Shown here piece by piece: positions 51,813-58,188 of a DNA stretch of 64,000 nucleotides. The stretch's first letter is position 1. Every line of letters starts with the position of its first letter. A program made the translations under genes and the position numbers. Origin of the DNA: Chloroflexota bacterium (lineage in GTDB: Bacteria; Chloroflexota; Anaerolineae; Aggregatilineales; Phototrophicaceae); NCBI GenBank assembly GCA_011523735.1, contig WTGB01000128.1, forward strand, positions 62,001 to 126,000, read 5' to 3'. The notes under the pieces are model-generated. The model did no database searches, was not told the DNA's origin, and saw nothing but the letters and a program-made list of their open reading frames with translations.

Positions 51813-52421
51813 TCAGCGATACAGGTTGTTGTCCTGGATGTAGCCCAGGACGTTATCCGGCACGAGATAACGTATGCTGCGGTCGGCGCGCAACCGGCTG
51901 ACTACGTAGGTAGAAGAGAGCCAGACGCTGAGCATAGGCACGTCGACGATATCGACCTGGCTTGACAAGCCTGGCAAAATATCGTCGTGCATATCGGTCC
52001 TGATATCTTCGTCAGCTCGTTTCATCACGGCGAGCCGGCAGCAGCAGTATAGCTCGGGCGGGCGCTCCCAGGTCGGCAAATCGCGGAGATTGTCGCCGCC
52101 CATTACAAAATACAATTCGGCATCCGGATATTGAGCGCGAAGCAGTTTGACCGTGTCAGCCGAATAGTGTGGTCCCGCGCGATCAATGTCGACGCGAGAG
52201 ACGCTGAACTTGGGATTGTCGCAGATGGCCAGTTGCAGCATGGCGAGCCGATGCGCAATGGGAAGACGAAGTTCATCACGCTTGACCGGGTGGTCGGCGA
52301 CCGGTACAAAGAGAATATGATCGATATCCAGCGCTTCGCAAGTATATTCCGCCAAGATGAGGTGGCCGATCTGCGGCGGATCAAAGGAACCGCCCAGAAT
52401 GCCAATGCGTTCGCGTTTCAC
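51813..52421 (-). CDS. nadD: Nicotinate-nucleotide adenylyltransferase
   Basis: 202 residues from GTG 52421, which overlaps the obg stop as GTGA and has GGAG eight bases upstream; the frame extends to 52430. Joins NaMN and ATP to deamido-NAD. The nucleotidyltransferase motif GGSFDPPQIGHL is at the N terminus; the C-terminal ISSTxIR-like block reads LSSTYVVSRLRADRSIRYLV. It is downstream of obg in the same operon, a common arrangement. Confidence 0.95.
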   Translation of the reverse strand: MKRERIGILGGSFDPPQIGHLILAEYTCEALDIDHILFVPVADHPVKRDELRLPIAHRLAMLQLAICDNPKFSVSRVDIDRAGPHYSADTVKLLRAQYPDAELYFVMGGDNLRDLPTWERPPELYCCCRLAVMKRADEDIRTDMHDDILPGLSSQVDIVDVPMLSVWLSSTYVVSRLRADRSIRYLVPDNVLGYIQDNNLYR

Positions 52422-53686
52422 TCCGACCACTCCAGTTCAAAGTCGCCGATGAAGACGGTATCGCCGTTCGTCACGCCGGCTTGCTGCAGGGCGGCCGCAA
52501 TGCCCATGGCTTCGAGCGTCTTGTGAAAGCGCAGAACCGCTTCCTCGTAGTCCCAATAAGTCATGGCCGCGGCACGCTCGATTCGGTCGCCGCTGACATA
52601 ATATACGCCGTCGTCCGCCACAAGCTCAAATGGCGGGTCGTCGTCTTCGTCCAGTTCATAGATCGGCGTCTCTTCCAATAACTGTTCGCGCTGTTTTGGC
52701 AAGGTCGAGGCAAGCCCAAACACACGTTGTATCAAGCGGTCGACATTTTCGCGCGTCAAGGCGGAGAGCGCCAGAGGGTTTTCGACGCCCCGCTCCAAGA
52801 GGCTATCTTCAAGCAAGGCGAGATATTCGCGAGCCTCGGGCAGATCCATCTTGTTCACAACGACGATTTCGGGTTTCTCCGCCAAATGCGGGTCGAAGAG
52901 CGCCAATTCCGCCCGGATTTGATTGTAGTCGGCCAAAGGGTCGGCAGCAGCGCCGTCCAACAGATGTACAATCAGTGAGGTCCGCTGCACATGACGGAGG
53001 AATGAATGTCCGAGGCCGATGCCGAGATGCGCGCCTTCGATGAGACCGGGAACATCGGCGAATACCAGGTCTTTGTTGTCGTACACAACCGTGCCGAGAT
53101 TAGGTTCAAGGGTGGTGAAAGGATAGTCGGCGATTTTCGGCTTGGCATTGCTGACGACCGAGAGCAGCGTGGATTTGCCGGCGTTTGGCAAGCCGACCAG
53201 GGCGACATCGGCGATCAACTTGAGTTCCAAAGTGATCCAGCGTTCGACGCCCGGTTCGCCTTTCTCCGCCAGGCGGGGCGCCTGGATAGCGGAGGTTTTG
53301 AAGCGCGCATTGCCCCGGCCGCCGCGTCCGCCCGGGGCCACCACTACTTCGGCATCTTGCCCGACGAGATCCGCGATCAAGCCGCCGGTTTTCGCATCGC
53401 GCACGACTGTGCCCATGGGTACGCGCACGATGAGCCTGTCGGCATCGGCGCCGGTCCGATTGCTTGAGCCACCCTTGCCGCCAGGCTTGGCTTTGAAATG
53501 CACGCGTTTGCGGAAGAAATAGAGGGTATTCAGATTGGCGTCGGTTTTGAGCAGGACATCGCCGCCGCGCCCGCCATCACCGCCTGAGGGTCCGCCACGC
53601 GGTACAAATTTTTCGCGGCGGAAGGATACCATCCCATCGCCGCCTTTGCCGCTCGCTACAAATATCTTGGCTTCATCAACCAGCAT
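52418..53686 (-). CDS. obg: Obg GTPase
   Basis: 422 residues from ATG 53686; the frame is open to 54094 but homology starts at LVDEAKIFVASGKGGDG. The glycine-rich Obg fold (GGPSGGDGGRGGDV) is followed by a G domain with GLPNAGKSTLLSVVSNAKP, then DYPFTTLEPNLG, then DVPGLIEGA and NKMDLPE. The C-terminal OCT domain (about 330-422) has FELVADDGVYYV and ends in FIGDFELEWSE. Involved in ribosome assembly and stress control. The next gene, nadD, is coupled by a 4-base overlap. Confidence 0.95.
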   Translation of the reverse strand: MLVDEAKIFVASGKGGDGMVSFRREKFVPRGGPSGGDGGRGGDVLLKTDANLNTLYFFRKRVHFKAKPGGKGGSSNRTGADADRLIVRVPMGTVVRDAKTGGLIADLVGQDAEVVVAPGGRGGRGNARFKTSAIQAPRLAEKGEPGVERWITLELKLIADVALVGLPNAGKSTLLSVVSNAKPKIADYPFTTLEPNLGTVVYDNKDLVFADVPGLIEGAHLGIGLGHSFLRHVQRTSLIVHLLDGAAADPLADYNQIRAELALFDPHLAEKPEIVVVNKMDLPEAREYLALLEDSLLERGVENPLALSALTRENVDRLIQRVFGLASTLPKQREQLLEETPIYELDEDDDPPFELVADDGVYYVSGDRIERAAAMTYWDYEEAVLRFHKTLEAMGIAAALQQAGVTNGDTVFIGDFELEWSE

Positions 53687-53893
53687 CGCCGCATGACCAT
53701 CGATTTGTGGCAGCCTCCGTGCGGGATGAGCATACCGCAGATTATGATAGGCGTGTAGATGGAATGGCTGCTGAGGAGACCGTCTAGGTCTCGGTCTGTT
53801 CTGGCAGGCGAGACAAGCGACAACTATAATCGCGACGCATCTCCGAGGGAGATGTAGGACAGTAAGTGATGGTAGGAATGGAAGGGCAATAGA

Positions 53894-54517
53894 TTGATCG
53901 CTCGAATCCGCTGGCAGGGACATGGCAGCTTCATCATTGAGGGGGACCCCGTAATTCAGATCGCGCCCTGGCGAATCGTAAAGCGGGAGAGCCCGCCCGA
54001 CATCATTCTGATAGGGCACGATCAATTCGATCATTGTTCGCCGGCGGATGTAGAGAAGATCCGCGGGGAAAACACACTTGTAATCGGCAGCCAAAGCGTC
54101 GCAGACATCATCCCGGGCACGAAAGTGCTGCGGGAGTGGCAGAGCATCAGCGTCGAGCGAACTAGCATCACCGCGATTCCAGCCGCAACAAGGCGGTCAG
54201 CGCGAGAAGGCAAAGCAAGCGGTAGATTGGGTTTTCTGATATCGCTGGATCTATACGATATCTACTATGTGGGCGAATCGGAAATCATCCCGGACGTAAA
54301 GCATTTCAAGCCGGACATCGTTCTGTTGCCGATTGATGGCTATGGTCGGCTGTCGGTGGAGACGGGGCTGGAGTTGGTGGACTTGATGAAACCAGCCTGG
54401 GCGATTCCTTACAATTGGGGCGGGGCCGGGGAAGAAGCGACGCAGTTGGACGCGCAGAGTTTCAAGAGCCGCGTCACTAGTAGGACCGAAGTCATACTGC
54501 TGCCTGTTAACCCATAG
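53894..54517 (+). CDS. Metallo-beta-lactamase fold protein, likely pseudoenzyme
   Basis: 207 residues from TTG 53894, preceded by GGAAGGG. The fold is of the UlaG-like MBL type: IRWQGHGSFII, ILIGHDQFDHCS, IYYVGESEIIPDVK and AIPYNWG follow the family order. Several metal ligands differ. In HxHxDH the second His is Gln44 (His42, Asp46 and His47 stay). The usual Asp of GDTD is Glu128, the usual HYG end is Asn174-Trp-Gly, and the Asp of LIDPW is Ala24. It is intact and in frame, so it is a real protein, but catalysis with two metals is doubtful. Convergent with clpX. Confidence 0.75.
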   Translation: MIARIRWQGHGSFIIEGDPVIQIAPWRIVKRESPPDIILIGHDQFDHCSPADVEKIRGENTLVIGSQSVADIIPGTKVLREWQSISVERTSITAIPAATRRSAREGKASGRLGFLISLDLYDIYYVGESEIIPDVKHFKPDIVLLPIDGYGRLSVETGLELVDLMKPAWAIPYNWGGAGEEATQLDAQSFKSRVTSRTEVILLPVNP

Positions 54518-54604: not shown

Positions 54605-55888
54605 TCAGGCGGCTGGATGAATCTTGCTTGACAGATTGATGACGCTGCCATCGCGGGTGAAGATACGCGGGGTCTCTTCGCCGCGGATGGCGGCATCGCC
54701 AATCAGTACGCGGGTGATATCGTCGCGGCTGGGCACTTCAAACATAACTTCAAGCAAGCAGGACTCAATGATCGAGCGTAGACCGCGCGCTCCGGTGTCG
54801 CGTTCAATCGCGAGTTCAGCTGCCGCATGAAGCGCCGCCTCGTCAAAGACCAGCTCGACGTTGTCCAGCGACAGCAGATGTTCGTACTGCCTGACGAGCG
54901 CATTCTTTGGCTCGATCATTATGCGCACCAAGTCCTCCAACTCTAGAGGCTGGAGCGCGACAATCACGGGAAGGCGTCCCACCATCTCCGGTATCATGCC
55001 ATGCTGGACCAAGTCCTCTGGCGAGGTGAGGCTCAGCAGGTCGGTGGTTTCTTGCTCGCCAGCGTCCTGCTGGGCGCCAAAGCCTATCTTGCTTTTCATG
55101 CCGACGCGGCGGCGGATTACCTCATCGAGGCCGGAGAATGTTCCGCCGACGATGAAGAGGATGTTGCGGGTGTCGATCTGCAAGAACTCTTGGTGCGGGT
55201 GCTTGCGCCCACCTTGCGGCGGCACATTTGCCACCGTGCCTTCGAGGATTTTGAGGAGAGCCTGCTGCACCCCTTCGCCGGAAACATCGCGTGTGATCGA
55301 AGGATTTGAATTGGACATGCGCGCGATTTTGTCGATCTCGTCGATGTAAATGATGCCGCGCTCGGCGCGCGCGATATTGCCCTCGGCGGCTTGAATCAGA
55401 CGCAACAGGATATTCTCCACGTCTTCGCCGACGTAGCCGGCTTCGGTGAGGGCAGTCGCATCGGTAATGCAAATGGGAACATCAAGGATGCGGGCGAGGG
55501 TCTGGGCGAGCAAAGTCTTGCCGCAACCGGTGGGACCGATGAGCAGGATATTGCTCTTGTCCAATTCGACATCCTGGGGCTCATCGGCCGCTTGAATGCG
55601 CTTGTAATGATTGTAGACCGCTACGCTCAGGACGCGTTTCGCATCAGCCTGTCCGATGACATATTCATCCAGCCGCTGCATGATCTGGCGGGGAGAAAAG
55701 GAGAACTCGAATTCAAAATCGCCTTCGGCACTCAGGTCCTTGGCTTCTTCTTTCAGCAGCAGGTTGTGGCAAAGCTCAACGCAGAAGTTGCAGATATGGA
55801 TATGCTCCGGACCGGCGATCAGACGGTCGACTTCGTCGTGAGTGCGAGCGCAGAAGTTGCAGCGATGTTTGATAGGGGAGAAGCTCAA
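54605..55888 (-). CDS. clpX: ATP-dependent protease ATP-binding subunit ClpX
   Basis: 427 residues from TTG 55888, with GGAAGGGG upstream, just past the clpP stop. Unfoldase that feeds proteins to ClpP. The N-terminal zinc domain has Cys10, Cys13, Cys33 and Cys36. The AAA+ core has Walker A GPTGCGKT, pore loop [10 protein letters not shown], Walker [12 protein letters not shown] and the substrate loop GRKHPHQ. The C-terminal sensor-2 region ends with [11 protein letters not shown]. Third gene of tig-clpP-clpX. Confidence 0.96.
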
Positions 55889-55889
55889 C

Positions 55890-56504
55890 TTAAACCCCTT
55901 CCAGTTCGCGCGCTTCACCGAGGAGCACGTTGTCAATCAAGCCGAAGTCGACCGCCTCCTGCGCAGTCATATAGACATCGCGGTCAGTAACGCGCTCGAC
56001 TTCTTCCGGCGTCTTGCCCGTGTGGTGGACGAATATATCAATGATGCGCTTCTTCAGCCGCACGATTTCTTCGGCCTGGATGACGATATCGGAGGCTTGG
56101 CCCTGCGCGCCACCCAAGGGCTGGTGCATGTGGATGGTGGCGTTCGGCAGAGCGAGGCGCATATCGGGCGACCCAGCGGTCAAGAGGACAGTCCCGAAAC
56201 TGGCGGTAATACCGACTGCAACCGTGCTGACCGGCGCCGCGATCTGCTGCATGGTGTCGTAGATGGCCAAGCCGGAATAAACGGCCCCGCCTGGCGAATT
56301 GATGTACATTTGAATTCGACGGTCGGGACCTTCCCGCTCAAGGAAGAGCAACTGAGCCACGATGAGATTAGCGATTTGGTCGTTGATGCCCGAGCCGACA
56401 AAGACAATGCGTTCTTTAAGGAGCAGAGAATATATGTCGTAGGCGCGTTCGCCGCGGCTGCCCTGCTCGATGACCATGGGGATCACATTGTGAAAGTCGT
56501 TCAT
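55890..56504 (-). CDS. clpP: ATP-dependent Clp protease proteolytic subunit
   Basis: 204 residues from ATG 56504; the frame extends to 56669 but that part overlaps tig. Conserved blocks are [16 protein letters not shown] and [19 protein letters not shown]. The catalytic Ser is in [15 protein letters not shown], His in [14 protein letters not shown] and Asp in [20 protein letters not shown]. The serine box reads ASFG where E. coli has ASMG, a mild change. It assembles as a tetradecamer with ClpX, encoded next. Confidence 0.95.
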
Positions 56505-56562
56505 TCGTTGTTGCAATCCTTTCTCTTGGCTAGGCGGATTGATATTTCCGGTAGGCGCAACT

Positions 56563-58188
56563 CTAGGCGCTCGTCGCATCGCCGCTGGATTGAAGGATTT
56601 CCGCTTCCGAAACAACTTCGATGTCAGAGTCACCCGACTCCTCATCGGATGGTGAGGCAGCGGCTTCATCTTCCGCTTGGTAACGCTGCAGTCGTTGGCT
56701 TCGCGCTTCCGCGCGTTGGACCTCTTCTTTCATTCGGCTGCGCATGGCTTCGATAGCCACAACGGGATCGTCCCCCCTGCCGATGGCAACGAGATGTTCA
56801 TTGATGTGGTTCATCACTAACTCGTTGCGAATATTGCCGCGCATCTGCGGCGTATCGAAGAGTTTGCGGATTTCGGGGCTGGATCCGTAGCCAGCTATAA
56901 CCGCGTCGAGCCGCAGCGCTATATCATCTTCACTCACCTCTATGTCCTGCGCGCGGACGATTTGCCGCAGGACGAGCGTTTGCCGCAGCGATTGGATTGC
57001 CCCGTCACGGTGCTGCTCTCGCAAGTCGTCTTTGGAGCTGTTGGTCAGCCGATAGTAATCTTCGAGTTTTATACGCTGTTGGGCAAGGTTGCGTTCAAAG
57101 TCGCCAATCATATCGTCGATATGCTCTTCGAGCATCATATCCGGATAATCAATGGCTGCGCCTTGGACGATTTGCTGAAGCACCTTGCCGCTGTATTGGG
57201 ATTTGGCTTCTGCCTCTGCCGAGCGCTCAAGCTCTTCTTGGGTCGCGGCGCGCAAGCCCAGGAGATCTAACTCTTCATCGCCGCGGTTTCGGCATACAAG
57301 CCGGGCGAAATCGTCGTCCAACTCAGGGATGGCTATCGCCTCAATGTTTTTCAGAGTCACGAGGAATTGTACGCAACGCCCGATAATCGTTTCGTCAGCG
57401 TCATCATCCGGAATCGTCAACTCAAATTCTACATCGCTACCTAGTTCGACGCCGATAAGACGCTCGACGAAACCGTGGGTGAAAGGGTCTTCGTTCGGGT
57501 CAAGGATAATGATTGCGTTTTCGTCATTGACAAAGGTATCGCCTTTTTTAGGGATGTAGGGAGCGGAACTGGCTTCAGCTTCGTCTTCGCCGTCATCATC
57601 GTCTGTTAGCGGGTCCCTGTCCTGCGGCGATGGGTCTACTTCAATTGCATCATCGGGAGATTCGCCATCAACGAACTCGCTTTCGACAGCGATGGTGACG
57701 CGATTGCCGGCGGCGGCGACTTCGACATTGTCATCAAGTATTTCAATCCCGCGCAATTGCATTTGCTTCAAGGCTTTTTCAATATCGTCGGCGGTGACTT
57801 CAGGCTCTTCGAAGTCGACGCGAATGTTCTGGTACTCCTTGAGATCCACTTCTGGCTGCAACGGCACGGAAAAAACGAAAGTAGGGGCCGGCTCCAACGT
57901 GAAATCGTCAAAGGCGCCTGGTCCGTAGGGCAGGACTTCGGATTCTTCCAATGCCTGCTTGTAGAGAATATCGCCGAGATCCTCAAGAGCTTCTTCCAAG
58001 ATCGCGCCTTCGCCGACGTGTTGCGCGACCAGCCTATAAGGTGCCTTGCCTTTGCGAAAGCCCTTGATGCGCACTTGCCGCGAGATTTTTCGCGCGGCTT
58101 TCCGCTTGGCGTCTTCCAACTGCTCCGCTTCAATTTCTATAGTGAATTGCGCCCGGTGGTTGTCGATACGCTCAGTTTGCAGTTTCAA
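56563..58188 (-). CDS. tig: Trigger factor with acidic insertion
   Basis: 541 residues, about 100 longer than usual. Ribosome-bound chaperone for nascent chains. The ribosome-docking loop GFRKGKAP is at 43-50. The PPIase domain (about 155-275) is split: FVDGES at 172-177 is followed by an acidic stretch (177-223, many Asp and Glu) before [19 protein letters not shown] continues the FKBP fold. The helical C-terminal domain covers about 285-490, and a charged tail follows. First gene of the tig-clpP-clpX set. Confidence 0.93.

Follow-up and report, generated by a model that had tools for sequence, protein, structure and literature searches.

The window, that is, the whole 64,000-nucleotide stretch of DNA that was analysed, carries a gene for a metallo-beta-lactamase (MBL)-fold protein at 53894..54517 (+), stop codon included. 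By ORF reading it encodes 207 amino acids from a TTG start codon and contains no internal stop, which agrees with the intact frame that a previous, sequence-only reading of this DNA had placed at exactly this position. Of 33 sequences from the genus, 23 have TTG where the start aligns, and a ribosome-binding-site-like GGAAGGG can be read from the sequence at 53880..53886 (+), 7 nt 5' of it. Further upstream, a promoter-like pair (CTGGCA-18-TATAAT, 10/12) at 53801..53830 (+) constitutes weak evidence for a promoter, the upstream region holding two promoter-like sites against a shuffle mean of 0.8. No inverted repeats were found at the locus. Two relatives from the genus (L029 and L031) have an MBL frame of 439 codons from stop to stop, which extends far 5' of the conserved start.

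The upstream neighbour is obg (52418..53686 (-)), which is divergent both here and in those genus loci where it is visible. The longest obg ORF (52418-54094 (-), 558 aa) overlaps the start of the MBL gene; the likely start is MLVDEAKIFV at 53686 and, if this start is taken, the overlap comes from taking the longest ORF. Downstream, clpX (54605..55936 (-)) is convergent and is followed by clpP (55890-56669) and by tig (56563-58188 (-)), whose trigger factor ORF contains acidic, low-complexity stretches. The tail to tail arrangement with clpX was found in 110 of 134 loci from the order, within Anaerolineae, to which the window belongs, and frame to frame distances were within 300 nt in 85 of them. 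clpX, clpP and tig were all seen in 73 order loci, 19 of the 134 had no clpX despite at least 1.5 kb of downstream sequence being shown and in five less was shown. Among class relatives outside the order, a convergent downstream clpX was present in 6 of 60 within the ~2 kb examined. An operon with clpXP-tig is ruled out because the MBL gene runs towards clpX on the opposite strand, and ClpXP is a neighbour only, not a demonstrated partner. A common upstream partner gene was also discarded, since the upstream neighbour is divergent in 7 of 10 order loci outside the genus, and no same-strand partner was seen in those seven. The other three (L093, L098 and L104) have a same-strand upstream neighbour, and their neighbouring genes depart from the common arrangement; judged by eye, L093 has a phosphoesterase-like frame immediately upstream, on the strand of the MBL gene, and L104 has one immediately downstream, on the opposite strand. 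Lastly, no PADLOC model matched the protein at E <= 0.1, on which basis an anti-phage defence gene was rejected.

Fold and metal site of the protein

The protein matches the Pfam family Lactamase_B_3 (PF13483; E 4.4e-18, 66.2 bits against a gathering cut-off of 24). Its NCBIfam match to PRK00685 is weak (43 bits against a cut-off of 144), which leaves it outside the UPF0173/PRK00685 equivalog, and P0002, a canonical relative from the order, is likewise under this cut-off (102.8 bits). The nearest solved structure by sequence is 3kl7 (E 3e-12), followed by TM1162. An AlphaFold2 model built with 62 sequences (mean pLDDT 88.5, pTM 0.89) also had 3kl7 as its best PDB match in Foldseek (TM 0.85 by query), and VIA aligned both with a Z of 25.8 and an rmsd of 2.2 over 198 residues. 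An MBL fold is thus predicted by the model and by the MBL structures that Foldseek and VIA matched to it, with residues 1-205 covered by the best match. UlaG-like proteins had been proposed for comparison in the sequence-only reading. UlaG is not the closest relative, as 3kl7, the UPF0173 proteins TM1162 and 7e3v/7e3w and, by VIA Z, Igni18 are all better matches; these better matches, together with the absence of the UlaG model (PRK11709) among the NCBIfam matches at E <= 1, rule out UlaG membership. Among the closest matches, the UPF0173 structure 7e3w has cAMP bound according to its description, which may be a clue to what the ancestral substrate was.

According to PMC7846560, the consensus among the MBL proteins set against Igni18 is five histidines and two aspartates that hold two Zn2+ ions. 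In the numbering of the window protein, and with columns assigned by our own alignment, these seven ligands are His42, His44, His47, His105, His174, Asp46 and Asp128. The window protein has His42, Gln44, Asp46, His47, Glu105, Glu128 and Asn174 at these positions and keeps three of the seven ligands of a two-metal MBL hydrolase (His42, Asp46 and His47): one of three histidines is left in the His42/His44/His105 site and two of four ligands in the Asp46/His47/Asp128/His174 site. The HxHxDH motif lacks its second histidine (His42-Asp-Gln44-Phe-Asp46-His47, 54017..54034 (+)), the Gln44 codon being CAA (54023-54025); according to the alignment, Glu128 (54275..54277 (+)) replaces the bridging Asp, and Asn174 (54413..54415 (+)) replaces the last His.

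These three substitutions had already been pointed out from the sequence, and all three are lost ligands. The list was incomplete, as a fourth loss affects the motif-3 His, which canonical relatives have as FH or YH in a P-A-Y...H loop and which is replaced by Glu105 in the corresponding loop of the window protein (residues 101-109, 54194..54220 (+)). The alignment is gapped in this region, where any His within columns 101-109 was scored as the motif-3 His, and the model is least certain in the same loop (pLDDT <50 at 105-108). The list also included Ala24 (53963..53965 (+)) in place of the Asp of the IDPW motif. The residue was read correctly, and Asp occupies column 24 in 100% of the outgroup, but Asp24 is outside the seven consensus ligands and its replacement is not the loss of a metal ligand.

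Ligand losses, selection and signature residues in the order

Of 60 relatives from the rest of the class, 59 were canonical at columns 24, 42, 44, 46, 47, 128 and 174, the exception having His at 46, and all 60 had a His in the motif-3 loop. These relatives were hand-picked from ~93 genomes of the same class with a best E <= 1e-36 (the class search gave matches at 1e-15 in 165 of 298 genomes, counting those of the order) and, as the query was a canonical sequence, they may lean towards canonical sites. Additionally, 36 of 36 relatives outside the order from several phyla were canonical, as found by a scan with a pattern favouring HxHxDH. Since 59 of the 60 class relatives are canonical, the ligand losses of the window protein are more than chance.

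Within the order, 138 of 154 genomes had a match at E <= 1e-10, and our sample comprised 134 sequences, one per genome. The matching genomes left out were G060 (fragments), G088 (split between contigs), G074 and G047, whose ortholog (L056, G047:C22:273527-274100) is split over two overlapping frames, suggestive of a frameshift or a misassembly. No ligand was lost in 22 sequences, one in 48, two in 19, three in 22 and four to six in 23, so that 112 of the 134 have lost between one and six. All seven ligands are present in every sequence of families f2 (6/6) and f7 (8/8) and in eight of nine of f8, and all 89 sequences of f1, the family of the window protein, have lost at least one. Retention among the 134 sequences was 109 for H42, 99 for H44, 100 for the motif-3 His, 106 for D46, 121 for H47, 103 for D128 and 42 for H174. 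On a tree of 170 sequences, from which the ligand columns were excluded, the fewest changes needed were 5, 11, 12, 13, 9, 7 and 3, respectively, counts in which loss and regain are indistinguishable. The tree was a quick one, with support under 80 at 55 of 167 inner branches, and it placed sequences of f3, f4 and f7 between those of f1; a false reversal may therefore be part of the 3 changes counted for His174. When ligand losses were tested against each other by independent pairs, the tests listed had 2-4 such pairs, too few for significance. As read from the alignment and the tree, the ligand losses are not a local oddity and are repeated within the order. In one member of the order (L125) the motif-3 loop is missing and HxHxDH is gone, with five ligands lost, and the fold is still predicted (pLDDT 91.0, pTM 0.89).

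At a threshold of E <= 0.001, 56 of 61 genomes (the window's own and 60 relatives) had a match. In the genus, 33 of 34 genomes did, and the other sequences were 59-83% identical to the window protein. Ala24 and Asn174 are fixed across the 33 genus sequences. Asp46 is present in all of them, His42 and His47 in 32 each and His44 in 27, the other residues at 44 being Q in two, R in two, N in one and D in one. Residue 128 is D in 24, E in eight and N in one, and the eight Glu are those of the window's subclade, in which His42, Asp46, His47, Glu128 and Asn174 are all invariant. The motif-3 His is present in 20 genus sequences and absent in 13, which the tree divides into a group of 5 and a group of 8. 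Support is 99 for the group of four that includes the window protein, whose three nearest relatives carry His, His and Asn at residue 44.

Matching order genomes have a single match each at E <= 1e-10, except for three in which the match is in two pieces. No second copy of the family was found in the window's genome, where the only other match at E <= 1 was a canonical UPF0173 protein, a paralog of another subfamily (26% identity, 270.7 bits to PRK00685). Regarding gene position, clpX faces the MBL gene in 82 of 89 f1 loci, 10 of 15 f3 loci and 5 of 5 f4 loci, and also in 5 of 6 f2 loci and 7 of 9 f8 loci, so this position is common to decayed (f1, f3, f4) and canonical (f2, f8) members. One match per genome and a shared position facing clpX point to decay without duplication. 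As clpX was found in one of eight loci of f7, a family of canonical members, the orthology of f7 is taken from the tree.

The window gene is under purifying selection. In Nei-Gojobori estimates from single pairs, with dS >1 in several of them, including both window pairs, dN/dS was 0.092 between the window and L003 (bootstrap 0.055-0.147) and 0.107 between the window and L004. Three pairs of the window lineage among L001, L003 and L004 gave 0.09-0.16, with a highest bootstrap limit of 0.27, and 16 genus pairs gave 0.06-0.20. Elsewhere, values were 0.053 for L045/L046, 0.064 for L212/L214 and 0.126 for the strongly decayed pair L216/L220, the last two pairs being from lineages whose sites are worse than that of the window protein, and a set of 15 pairs that includes decayed ones had a range of 0.01-0.23 (maximum 0.225).

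Furthermore, comparison of the order with 96 outgroup sequences revealed new, nearly fixed residues, including R80, W82, Q83, D122 and Y125. In the window protein they lie in two stretches, Arg80-Glu-Trp82-Gln83-Ser84 (54131..54145 (+)) and Asp122-Ile-Tyr124-Tyr125 (54257..54268 (+)), Tyr124 being common to the outgroup. W82, D122 and Y125 are at 0% in the outgroup, R80 at 22% and Q83 at 5%, positions 122 and 83 being mostly Arg and Asp there. Among the 23 sequences that have lost four to six ligands, the most decayed ones, R80, Q83, D122 and Y125 are at 100% and W82 at 91%. In the 22 order members with all seven ligands the frequencies are 91% (R80), 95% (W82, Q83 and D122) and 82% (Y125), and this presence in most members with an intact site suggests that the signature probably arose before the ligand losses. 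From these alignments the signature could also be purely structural, for example a rewired salt bridge.

A candidate pseudoenzyme and alternative readings

The window protein combines the sequence features of a pseudoenzyme: the fold is kept, as predicted, metal ligands are lost, and the gene is intact and under selection. Two-metal catalysis had been considered unlikely from the sequence alone, and our analysis supports this view, as both sites are incomplete, selection is purifying, and relatives with worse sites keep the gene and, in one of them, the predicted fold. To deduce a lack of catalysis from the lost ligands goes too far, because RNase J2 of S. epidermidis (PMC7864078) and UlaG (PMC7846560) are described as working with one metal. 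We consider it somewhat probable that this is a putative MBL-fold pseudoenzyme, that is, the ortholog of a two-metal hydrolase in which hydrolysis was lost in the lineage and which has been kept for a binding role. That it is an ortholog of an ordinary two-metal hydrolase, and not a spare copy, is part of this best explanation. We infer that hydrolytic activity has been lost in the window protein, for which a binding or regulatory role is predicted as the leading reading and is plausible. The protein would bind a protein or a small molecule without cleaving it. The signature residues are probably part of its present working surface or pocket; this binding face would include R80-x-W82-Q83, D122 and Y125, carried by the 79-84 hairpin and by the 122-128 strand into the old metal loop. 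A more specific proposal is that a single-copy MBL gene changed in place, with no duplication, from encoding a two-metal hydrolase to encoding a metal-free binding protein, after which the site decayed repeatedly and in parallel throughout the order and the signature became the conserved core. This proposal is tentative; it may well be right, and we stop short of calling it probable.

Several observations count against the pseudoenzyme reading. All 33 genus sequences retain Asp46, and 32 each retain His42 and His47. The five residues invariant in the subclade of eight resemble a remodelled one-metal site and, with the motif-3 His in 20 and His44 in 27 of the 33, many congeners may still bind metal. 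The protein could still be an enzyme, in which His42, Asp46, His47, Glu128 and Asn174 form one remodelled metal site that supports one-metal hydrolysis, an alternative that we find unlikely, if worth serious attention. The invariance of these five residues in the subclade and of Asp46 in the genus is consistent with it. In this regard, S. epidermidis RNase J2 is reported to be active with a single Mn2+, its ligands being four His and Glu166 (PMC7864078). PMC7846560 describes a single Mn2+ in UlaG, whose Asp184 stands where Igni18 has its fourth His; according to the same paper, this position is Glu377 in the beta-hydroxylase CmlA (4JO0), in which Ala482 replaces His194 of Igni18. However, unlike in UlaG or CmlA, the eight members of the subclade conserve no carboxylate at residue 105 (E, A, A, G, D, D, A and D), and a carboxylate ligand of that type was rejected on this ground. 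Moreover, other members of the order lose Asp46 or His47 and keep the gene, which argues that the shared role does not need these residues.

A second alternative, which we regard as improbable, is that the hydrolase is nearly dispensable in the order and drifts under relaxed selection, the gene surviving since its fold does little harm. The frequent ligand changes, scattered on the tree, would fit such a drift, as would the 16 of 154 order genomes that yielded nothing at E <= 1e-10 (a set that includes incomplete assemblies) and the G047 protein, which reads as if frameshifted. Relaxed selection is however difficult to reconcile with the low dN/dS in 15 of 15 pairs (0.01-0.23), decayed ones included, with a match in 33 of 34 genus genomes and with the strong order-specific conservation. 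Lastly, although the source assembly is in 169 contigs and Gln44 is not common to the three nearest relatives, a sequencing or assembly error or a recent pseudogene is very improbable, the latter being ruled out by the lack of a stop, a dN/dS of ~0.1 and changes common to relatives. Each of the changes apart from Gln44 recurs in separately assembled genomes of the genus, in 7 to 32 further sequences, and these also vary at residue 44 (N, R, R, D, Q).

If the more specific proposal of conversion in place is true, the order would hold a natural enzyme-to-pseudoenzyme series, from canonical members (f2 and f8, which mostly face clpX, and f7, which mostly does not) through to those with four to six ligands lost. 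The presence of canonical and decayed members in one order makes loss of the chemistry with the job kept directly testable. It is also a warning for annotation, as such proteins are easily named metal-dependent hydrolases.

Comparison with known MBL-fold proteins

The canonical PF13483 relatives from Anaerolineae and other phyla (e.g. L121, L109 and L108) belong to the same family by alignment and tree, and differ in having all seven ligands and in lacking W82, D122 and Y125 (0% of 96). With the UPF0173/PRK00685 proteins (TM1162, 3x2z; Igni18, 6hrg; 7e3v/7e3w) and with 3kl7 the window protein has its fold in common over the whole length, whereas its similarity to the PRK00685 profile is weak, far under the 144-bit cut-off. 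Igni18 is described with two Zn2+ in a consensus site (PMC7846560), in contrast to the three of seven ligands in the window protein. UlaG (2wyl, 2wym) has an MBL fold as well and, according to the same paper, an altered fourth-His position and one metal, but its fold match to the window protein is lower, first appearing at Foldseek rank 9.

RNase J2 of S. epidermidis resembles the window protein as a bacterial MBL protein with an altered site and a Glu among its ligands, as described in PMC7864078; it differs in being active with one metal and in being a paralog of RNase J1, which has two. In PqsE, a bacterial MBL-fold protein with a binding partner, binding of RhlR has been reported to be separable from catalysis (PMC12077149). 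PqsE differs in that it retains catalytic activity, and this uncoupling indicates that a binding role is possible for an MBL protein.

A precedent for lost chemistry is INTS9, an MBL protein unable to hold the catalytic ions that has been called a pseudoenzyme (PMC7980224). The window protein would share this loss on an MBL fold, as judged from its ligand residues. INTS9 differs in being eukaryotic, in having a beta-CASP domain and in being paired with the nuclease INTS11, whereas in the window's family the single ortholog has itself decayed. CPSF100, which has been compared with INTS9, is also inactive. No comparable bacterial family of MBL pseudoenzymes was found among open-licence PMC papers, as judged by titles and the starts of abstracts, and INTS9, the sole MBL pseudoenzyme so named in the open-licence PMC literature searched, is a eukaryotic subunit beside an active nuclease. 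If our reading is true, the order would instead offer a bacterial family in which the only ortholog loses its site by degrees, for the most part at a single genomic position.
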